A stretch of 5,037 nucleotides of DNA, from the NCBI GenBank assembly GCA_947463165.1, contig CANHSW010000187.1:1-5037 (forward strand), read 5' to 3'. Source of the stretch: Cyanobacteriota bacterium. Its GTDB lineage: Bacteria > Cyanobacteriota > Cyanobacteriia > PCC-6307 > Cyanobiaceae. The notes below the pieces were generated by a model that searched no databases, was not told where the DNA came from, and saw nothing but the letters and a program-made list of their open reading frames with translations. The position numbers and the translations under genes are program-made. This document shows, piece after piece, positions 1 to 5,037 of this stretch; the first letter of the stretch is position 1; every line of letters begins with the position of its first letter.

Positions 1-824
1 AGTGGTGGAGTCCGGGTGAATGACCAGACTGCGCACATCACCGAGGATGAAGGAGAGATTCACACCGAAGGCGCCATCCACCCCAGATCGCGGGCATAAA
101 CAACACCGTGGTAGCTGGAATCAGGTTGGTTGTAGTTAGGGAAGCGTTCGGGATGGGCGCCGTAATCAAAGCGACCGCTATCAATGATCACACCGCCGAT
201 GGCGGTGCCATGGACCACCACATCGGCCCCCCACTCGATTGGACGGATTAGATAAGGAGTGGCGACGGTGTTGTCCACGATCAGCGGCACACCCACCTCG
301 TGGGCGATCTCCGCCACGGCTTCGATGTCGAGAACGTCGTTCCTGGGGTTGGAGATCGATTCACCAAAGAAAGCCTTGGTATTAGGCTTTACCGCTGCAC
401 GCCAAGAGGCGGGATCATCGGGGTTGTCAACGAAGGACACCGTGATGCCCAGCTTGGGGAGGGTGTAGTGGAACAGGTTGTAAGTGCCGCCATAGAGCGA
501 GGGGCTGGAAACGATGTGATCGCCTGCCTCAGCAATGTTCAAAATGGCAATGGTTTCGGCGGCCTGTCCGCTGGCGACCAGCAGGGCGCCCACCCCTCCC
601 TCCAGGGCAGCGAGCCTTTCCTCCACGGCCGCCTGGGTGGGATTCATGATCCGGGTATAGATGTTGCCCAGCTCCTTGAGGGCAAACAAATTAGCGGCGT
701 GGCTGGTATCCCGGAAGGTGTAAGAGGTGGTCTGATACAGCGGCAATGCCCGGGATTGGGTGGTGGGATCAACCACCTGCCCCGCATGGATCTGCTTGGT
801 TTCAAAAGACCAGGAGTTGGCCAT
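1..824 (-). pseudogene. metY: O-acetylhomoserine sulfhydrylase (MetY), broken, 3' end outside the window
   Basis: Family: a PLP enzyme of the Cys/Met-metabolism group that makes homocysteine from O-acetylhomoserine and sulfide in the cytoplasm. The ATG at 822-824 gives the usual MetY N terminus ([16 protein letters not shown]). Conserved PLP-site pieces are visible: YTR at residues 56-58, SGQAAET at 85-91, Tyr111 in [10 protein letters not shown], and VDNT with Asp184. Three defects follow. After VVVH (residue 205) the text jumps straight to GTAIGG, so the SATKxLGGH segment carrying the PLP lysine is missing. At the C4 tract 81-84 a base appears to be lost, giving a stop at 60-62. In the restored frame, NLSFIL is joined directly to GDVRSLVIHPDSTT, omitting roughly 110 family residues. 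As written the product cannot be a working transsulfuration-family enzyme. It is the last gene of the minus-strand arm. Family assignment is very secure. Whether the lesions are biological or assembly errors is open. Confidence 0.85.
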
Positions 825-1033: not shown

Positions 1034-1603
1034 TCACTGCAACAGGGTTTTCAGCTGCAGGGGTACTGGATTGCGGAGGGTATTGGCAACTGGCGAGTAG
1101 TGGTTCGCCTGGTCCACGATCGCCTGCAGCTCAGTGTCGCTGGCATCACCTTCGATCAGAACCTGGACGCGAATCGCTTGAAAGCCCATCTCGGCAGCTG
1201 GTGTATCCAGGGCGCCACCGGCACCCCAGGCGGCTGGATTGCCAATGTCACCCTCCAAGAACAGCTCCAAGCGGGAGAGATGCACCTGCTTCCAGGTGGC
1301 CACGGCCGTGATTCCCACCGCCAGGCAGCCGCCGAGACCCGCCAGCACGGTTTCCCCGGGGGCCGGTGCCGTGTTCTGCCCGAACAGATGCAGCGGTTCA
1401 TCCACCACCACCGGTTCGTGGTCGCCGATGTAATTGAGGGTGCGGTACTGGCCGTCTGTAACGGTGTGCACCCTGTTGGTGCCCCGAGCCGTTGGGTTAT
1501 TGCGGCCTTTTTCGGCAAAAGCCAGCAGACCGTCCCGGTCGATCGGGCGCAGATGCGCTTTCACGGTGTTAACAGGTGGTTGAAGAGGAGAAGTGGTGCT
1601 CAT
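1034..1603 (-). CDS. OsmC/Ohr-family protein
   Basis: 189 residues from the ATG at 1601-1603. OsmC-family proteins are small cytoplasmic dimers that reduce peroxides using a pair of cysteines. The family core is visible: an N-terminal strand region (RVHTVTDGQYRTLNYIG, 44-60), the helix PGETVLAGLGGCLAVGITAVAT (82-103) with the first cysteine at 93 and a plausible active-site Glu84, and the C-terminal HYSPVANTLRNPVPL (168-182). In classical OsmC/Ohr the last motif reads HxxCPV, so the second redox cysteine is replaced here by Ser170. Cys93 is the only cysteine in the protein. The N-terminal 20 residues are longer than in the short Ohr proteins. It sits 98 bp downstream of the flavoprotein gene on the same strand, consistent with a role in organosulfur metabolism. 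No strong ribosome-binding site precedes the start. Family assignment is firm; the reaction is unknown. Confidence 0.85.
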   Translation of the reverse strand: MSTTSPLQPPVNTVKAHLRPIDRDGLLAFAEKGRNNPTARGTNRVHTVTDGQYRTLNYIGDHEPVVVDEPLHLFGQNTAPAPGETVLAGLGGCLAVGITAVATWKQVHLSRLELFLEGDIGNPAAWGAGGALDTPAAEMGFQAIRVQVLIEGDASDTELQAIVDQANHYSPVANTLRNPVPLQLKTLLQ

Positions 1604-3891: not shown

Positions 3892-5037
3892 ATGGCTATC
3901 CATCACCCACTCAGCTGCGACTGCTGCGGCATGAACCGCCGCCAGTTCCTCCAATTTGGAGGTCTGCTGGCCGCCTCCACCGGTTTGAGCCTGCTGGGGC
4001 GCCAGCTGCCCGCCCAGGCAGCCAGCCCCTCCCTCGCCAAAAGCCAGGATCAGCCCGTGAAGATCGGCTATTTGCCAATTCTTGACGCCTCTCCTCTGCT
4101 GATCGCCGACGCCAGGGGAGCGTTCAAGGACCAGGGCCTGACGGCGAGCGATCCCACCCGCTTTCGCTCCTGGGCCCAACTATCGGAAGCCTTTCTTTCG
4201 CGTCAGGTGAATGTGGTGCACATGCTCTTTCCCACCACAATCTGGATTCGATATGGCAAGAATTTTCCCGCCAAGGTGGTGGCCTGGAACCACACCAATG
4301 GCTCCGCCCTAACGGTGCGGGAGAGCATCAACAAACCCACAGATCTGGGCGGTCAAGTGGTGGCGATACCGTTCTGGTATTCGATTCACAACATTCTGCT
4401 GCAACAGTTGCTGCAGAAGAATGGACTAAAAGTGGTGCGCAGGCCACTGGAGGCACCCCTGGGCGAAAGGGAGGTAAATCTGATCGTATTGCCACCGGCG
4501 GAGATGGTGCCCGCCCTGGCCAGCAATAAGATTGCCGGCTATATCGTAGCCGAACCATTCAATGCGGCGGCGGAAACTAAAAAAATCGGCAAAGTACTGC
4601 GGTTCAGCGGTGATATCTGGAACGACCATGCCTGCTGCGTCGTGCTGGTGCACGAAGAAGATGTAAAAAGCCGGCCCGAGTGGACCCAGCGTGTGGTGAA
4701 TGCCATCGTTAGCTCCCAGCGCTGGATGCAGGGCAACCGCCTGGAAGTGGCAGACATTCTCAGCCAAGAAGGCGGTCGTAATTACACCCCCCACAGCAAG
4801 GCGATACTCACCCGAGCGCTCACAGCCTACGGCAAACCCTATGTTCAAGATCGGGCAATTCTGCATCCTGAATGGAAAAATCAACGCATCGACTTCCAGC
4901 CCTATCCATTTGATTCCTACACCAAGGAGCTAGTGCGGTTGCTAAAAGTTACCCAGGTGGAAGGCGATCAAGCTTTCCTGAAAACACTAAATCCAAACCT
5001 GGTGGCCCGCGATCTAGTAACGGATCAGTTCGTGCGC
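3892..5037 (+). CDS. Tat-exported ABC substrate-binding protein, NrtA/CmpA/SsuA family, 3' end outside the window
   Basis: From the ATG at 3892 the frame stays open for 382 codons to the window end; the family is usually about this long, so few residues are probably missing. It captures a small anion such as a sulfonate outside the inner membrane and hands it to the permease. The N terminus carries a twin-arginine signal: NRRQFLQ (15-21), a hydrophobic stretch (22-36) and a likely AQA cleavage site ending at residue 43. The mature domain starts KIGYLPILDASPLLIADARGAF (57-78) and contains SWAQLSEAFLSRQVNVVHML, NHTNGSALTV, the family-typical VVAIPFWYSIHN (156-167), IAGYIVAEPFNAAAE (214-228) and DHACCVVLV (245-253). 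Ahead of the arginine pair is an unusual CDCCG (9-13). An internal ATG at 3931 would start just at MNRRQFL and lose that motif; neither start has a strong ribosome-binding site. Substrate not readable from sequence. Confidence 0.9.
   Translation, partial: MAIHHPLSCDCCGMNRRQFLQFGGLLAASTGLSLLGRQLPAQAASPSLAKSQDQPVKIGYLPILDASPLLIADARGAFKDQGLTASDPTRFRSWAQLSEAFLSRQVNVVHMLFPTTIWIRYGKNFPAKVVAWNHTNGSALTVRESINKPTDLGGQVVAIPFWYSIHNILLQQLLQKNGLKVVRRPLEAPLGEREVNLIVLPPAEMVPALASNKIAGYIVAEPFNAAAETKKIGKVLRFSGDIWNDHACCVVLVHEEDVKSRPEWTQRVVNAIVSSQRWMQGNRLEVADILSQEGGRNYTPHSKAILTRALTAYGKPYVQDRAILHPEWKNQRIDFQPYPFDSYTKELVRLLKVTQVEGDQAFLKTLNPNLVARDLVTDQFVR

Follow-up and report, generated by a model that had tools for sequence, protein, structure and literature searches.

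Gene content of the contig and lesions in the metY-like gene

The window, by which we mean the whole stretch of DNA that was analysed, is one entire contig, C187, with a length of 5037 bases; the assembly to which it belongs comprises 332 contigs totalling 2.27 Mb and is 77.66% complete. Its minus strand carries a broken metY-like gene of the O-acetylhomoserine/O-acetylserine sulfhydrylase family (60..824; a frame of 254 residues ending in WMAPSV and a stop), the gene for a 189-residue OsmC-like protein upstream of it (1034..1603; PF02566, 69.1 bits), and an acyl-CoA-dehydrogenase-like gene (1702-2847), while the plus strand codes for an ABC ATPase (to 3879) and a substrate-binding protein (3892-5037) that runs off the contig end. 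The frames of the four genes other than metY are open. The acyl-CoA-dehydrogenase-like gene adjoins the transporter pair, which is SsuB/SsuA-like; by neighbourhood only, it might encode a flavin monooxygenase for organic sulfur, and the block as a whole probably serves organic sulfur use. The block looks accessory, since the acyl-CoA-dehydrogenase-like gene was found in only one of the 24 genomes searched, namely the window's own.

The product of the metY-like gene (P0001) belongs to the family originally predicted, with a PF01053 match of 227.9 bits (cut-off 27) over residues 8-207, and resembles MetY (PF01053; TIGR01326; e.g. chain 4kam) in sequence over residues 1-247; chain 4kam and an intact relative (P0002) matched with 644 bits. 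An osmC gene also lies just upstream of metY in another genome (G377, locus L156), a neighbourhood that matches that of the window. The protein differs from MetY in lacking the lysine segment, in being frameshifted and in having lost 109 C-terminal codons. Its score against the NCBIfam model TIGR01326 (369.5 bits) falls under the curated cut-off of 495.1, and its 254 residues compare with 437 or 438 in close relatives and with a full length of approximately 420-440 for the family. The closest intact copy found (L116) shares 83% DNA identity with the window metY.

In the translation (824..60, minus strand), ADVVVH (residues 200-205) joins GTAIGG directly. The original prediction had described an in-frame loss of nine codons here and proposed an alignment with related MetY proteins as a check; in our alignment with seven intact relatives (L116-L122) exactly 27 bp are absent from the window, and all seven relatives carry the segment, which reads S-[AV]-T-K-Y-[IL]-G-G-H. 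The junction (207..212, minus strand) lies between the flanking His and Gly codons, and the break falls at 209/210, as predicted, if it is put after the His codon. It slides over a common CAT/CCAT, which fits the suggested loss between short direct repeats. In the MetY family the lysine of the S-x-T-K segment forms the Schiff base with PLP. The same lysine is aligned in the solved chains 4kam and 8sf5, and the lysine lost from the window is likely the one that holds the PLP cofactor of this MetY-like enzyme. The motif TKx[ILM]GGH was present in 174 of the 176 MetY-type proteins among the matches listed (P0001 included); P0059 retains the lysine in an altered motif (TKYIAGH), leaving P0001 as the sole protein without the segment, and none of the best 120 matches of the region search shares the loss. 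A natural lysine-less subtype of MetY was considered and rejected, given that no second case occurs among those 176 matches listed and that a frameshift lies beside the gap.

The sequence flanking the gap, which had been thought fully conserved, is so from 824 down to approximately 85 and not beyond. At about 81..84 (minus strand) one base is missing compared with the relatives, seen as one gap column in the alignment, and the frame then reads six codons to a stop, so that the protein ends at 254 residues. A further 327 bp, or 109 codons relative to L116-L119, have been lost at 42..43 (minus strand), where BLAST aligned the window in two pieces (43-826 and 2-44), the length of the loss being 327 in all four relatives, with TC common to both sides. 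The remaining 42 bases (1..42, minus strand) are a 3' remnant of metY that aligns with L116 1634-1676 and is cut by the contig end. Both the frameshift and the 327-bp loss lie within 170 bp of the 27-bp gap. The lengths 27 and 327 are in frame and have 2-4 bases common at their joins, whereas the one-base loss is out of frame. Compared with its intact orthologues the gene therefore carries three disabling lesions. In naming a dead enzyme and an assembly error, the original interpretation chose the correct alternatives, but the loss of the lysine on which it was based is only one of these lesions; the frameshift and the 327-bp loss alone, without the lysine loss, would be enough to destroy the enzyme.

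When the assembly's own DNA was searched with the 3'-terminal part of the intact L116 metY, only the two known pieces on C187 came up, so the missing part of the gene is not on another contig of the assembly. A 30-base sequence spanning the 27-bp junction had no exact match in viral_contigs, and a scan of genome contigs, which may leave out records near the window's own genome, gave 80 loci with a best identity of 79%, none of them similar enough to resolve this locus. A tblastn search against phage records gave 34 records, all below 60% identity.

Selection on metY and the reality of the break

The substitutions in what is left of metY look strongly constrained. Over 244 of the 438 codons, the window and L116 differ by 85 synonymous and 20 non-synonymous changes (dN/dS 0.051), and the 41 codons after the 27-bp gap show 15.5 synonymous against 2.5 non-synonymous differences. 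At sites where three outgroups and the other copy agree, there were 10 amino-acid changes specific to the window and five specific to L116, a small excess. No relaxation of selection after the break is apparent from the dN/dS of 0.051, a value that a break could explain only if it is very recent; in a gene decaying step by step, three lesions with no relaxation of substitution would be unusual, a point against a real pseudogene. Since the substitutions are so constrained, the gene appears to have been under selection until lately, and the lesions would be either recent or artefactual.

Evidence from outside the contig bears on this choice. The same 254-residue protein (the row of P0001) is listed with nine contigs, the longest of 182,657 bases; one of the nine may be C187 itself and several may share reads. 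The contig count is not a sum over cluster members, because other rows pair many members with a single contig (10 members and one contig for P0003 and for P0034, 12 and one for P0068). A single table column is the source for the 182,657-base contig as carrier of the locus; a search with the OsmC protein did not reproduce it, the best row (P0121; 99% identity) having four contigs with a longest of 22,465 bases. As a control, 43 other contigs of the assembly and the window (336 kb, 88 ends) were compared with open reading frames from 1.6 of the 2.41 Mb of another genome (G011). Among 140 matched frames there were 14 gaps of at least five residues, of which three had a flank identity of at least 0.6, the nearest lying 1,748 bases from a contig end, and the two frameshift-like cases resembled antisense frames when inspected by eye. 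Where the 43 sibling contigs could be tested, none had a lesion comparable to those of metY, 26 of the 88 ends falling in a matched frame. The clean control indicates that errors of this type are not widespread in the assembly, with most ends beyond the reach of the test. Together with the nine contigs listed for the 254-residue protein, it makes an artefact less likely than a real broken gene, without proof.

Our data are best explained by a young pseudogene, that is, a real and recently broken accessory gene of the metY type, and we consider this probable. Three deletions would have removed the predicted cofactor-binding lysine, shifted the frame and excised most of the C-terminal part, and because they take all of these, the 254-residue product would be inactive. 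Each of the two larger losses may have arisen by slippage or end-joining at the 2-4 bp of common sequence. Like ordinary bacterial pseudogenes formed by small deletions, metY has several frame-breaking or domain-removing deletions beside open neighbours, but it differs from them in having no relaxed substitution yet, so that it would be very young if real. The same absence of relaxation, pointing to selection until very recently, also fits a metY that is intact in the living cell, with a thin or mixed contig end stitched together from reads that were chimeric or in error. Amplification chimaeras, too, typically show joins at 2-4 bp of common sequence like those of metY; moreover, the final 210 bases of the contig, a place where assembly errors gather, contain all three lesions, and the assembly is in many pieces (332 contigs) and 77.66% complete. 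We nevertheless regard an assembly or amplification artefact as unlikely, in view of the identical protein listed with nine contigs, the longest of 182,657 bases, the lack of any lesion of this sort at those contig ends that could be tested (26 of 88), the four open frames elsewhere in the window and a contig composition that fits the assembly.

The contig might also have been binned wrongly, in which case a gene broken in another organism would say nothing about the pathway of this genome. Its genus mates (G001, G002) have neither MetY nor a relative of the acyl-CoA-dehydrogenase-like protein, and the nearest intact metY found belongs to a different genus (g6). An acquired gene block accounts for this patchy presence equally well, and the tetranucleotide distance of the window to its assembly (0.178) is lower than that to the g6 loci (0.239) or to G011 (0.216) and would rank fifth-lowest among 14 similar-sized contigs of the assembly (0.150-0.313). 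Misbinning, the probability of which overlaps with those of both the pseudogene and the artefact, therefore seems improbable. Retention of the shortened protein for a role without PLP, for instance as a non-catalytic partner, is very improbable. The lengths 27 and 327 are both multiples of three, which has a chance of one in nine, and the substitutions on either side of the 27-bp gap are mostly synonymous, but the low dN/dS is equally explained by selection before the break, the frameshift takes away the rest of the protein, and among the matches listed the loss of the lysine recurs in no other lineage.

Predicted alternative routes to homocysteine

Rescue by a second, intact MetY was considered and rejected, none being present in the assembly (77.66% complete). 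A MetX-like protein is encoded on contig C276 of the same assembly; it scores 373 bits against TIGR01392, under the cut-off of 500, a score reached by none of 18 genomes and none of 14 controls. It shares 45-47% identity with the metX-like genes that lie 3' of metY in four genomes (G374, G265, G296, G290), and the gene upstream of it is not metY. On C276 (L172 1025-2690) it begins 10 bases after a 173-residue frame that by eye looks rhodanese-like. In G377 (C26; L156 7916-9008) metY is intact but the metX-like gene beside it is divided between two frames, which we take as a sign that the metX-metY pair decays elsewhere too. A metX-like gene without a MetY match occurs in G007 (C4 64368-65312), a genome that is 99% complete.

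The window's genome also encodes HcyBio (DUF39, PF01837; a 380-residue frame on contig C64, 137.7 bits) and a NIL-domain protein (contig C49; 61.7 bits), which are predicted to give homocysteine by another route, so that loss of metY is probably tolerated. The species Synechococcus elongatus was an HcyBio-positive control in the HcyBio search. Homocysteine would then be formed from aspartate semialdehyde by DUF39/NIL and not from O-acetylhomoserine and sulfide. A route of this kind, with DUF39 (HcyBio, PF01837) and NIL/ferredoxin, is described for Desulfovibrio and methanogens (PMC5764234). The HcyBio and NIL-domain genes of that description are both in the window's assembly, and the route is predicted here from these two genes. 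In the open-access literature searched, no article on cyanobacterial homocysteine synthesis through DUF39 came up, which is weak evidence of absence.

The distribution of these genes suggests that the two routes seldom occur together. The genus mates G001 and G002 both have HcyBio and lack MetY, and among ten genomes tested a NIL domain was found in all eight with HcyBio and in neither of the two without it, although NIL also occurs in other proteins. The searches for MetY (E <= 1e-120) and HcyBio across the family seem, judging by the genome handles, to share one set of 400 genomes, 228 of which have MetY and 148 HcyBio: 209 have MetY only, 129 HcyBio only, 19 both (including the window's own genome with its broken copy) and 43 neither (among them G004, where another PF01053 enzyme is present, and genomes that are incomplete). 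This avoidance is marked (Fisher p 1.8e-45, ignoring shared ancestry). As MetY and HcyBio rarely coexist, NIL accompanies HcyBio in the genomes tested and the window's genome has both HcyBio and NIL, the lineage seems to retain the DUF39 route, with MetY as an additional one. More tentatively, and with the balance tipping slightly against it, DUF39/NIL and MetX/MetY may be interchangeable routes to homocysteine that replace each other in the picocyanobacteria of the family, with this contig catching an acquired MetY as it is being discarded and the lineage reverts to DUF39.

The loss of a gene is in itself ordinary, and the more interesting part is the pathway swap. Because the MetY and DUF39/NIL genes almost exclude one another in the family, a missing metY should not be annotated as methionine auxotrophy, and genomes that have both routes, or one of them in broken form, lend themselves to natural tests of how one pathway replaces another.
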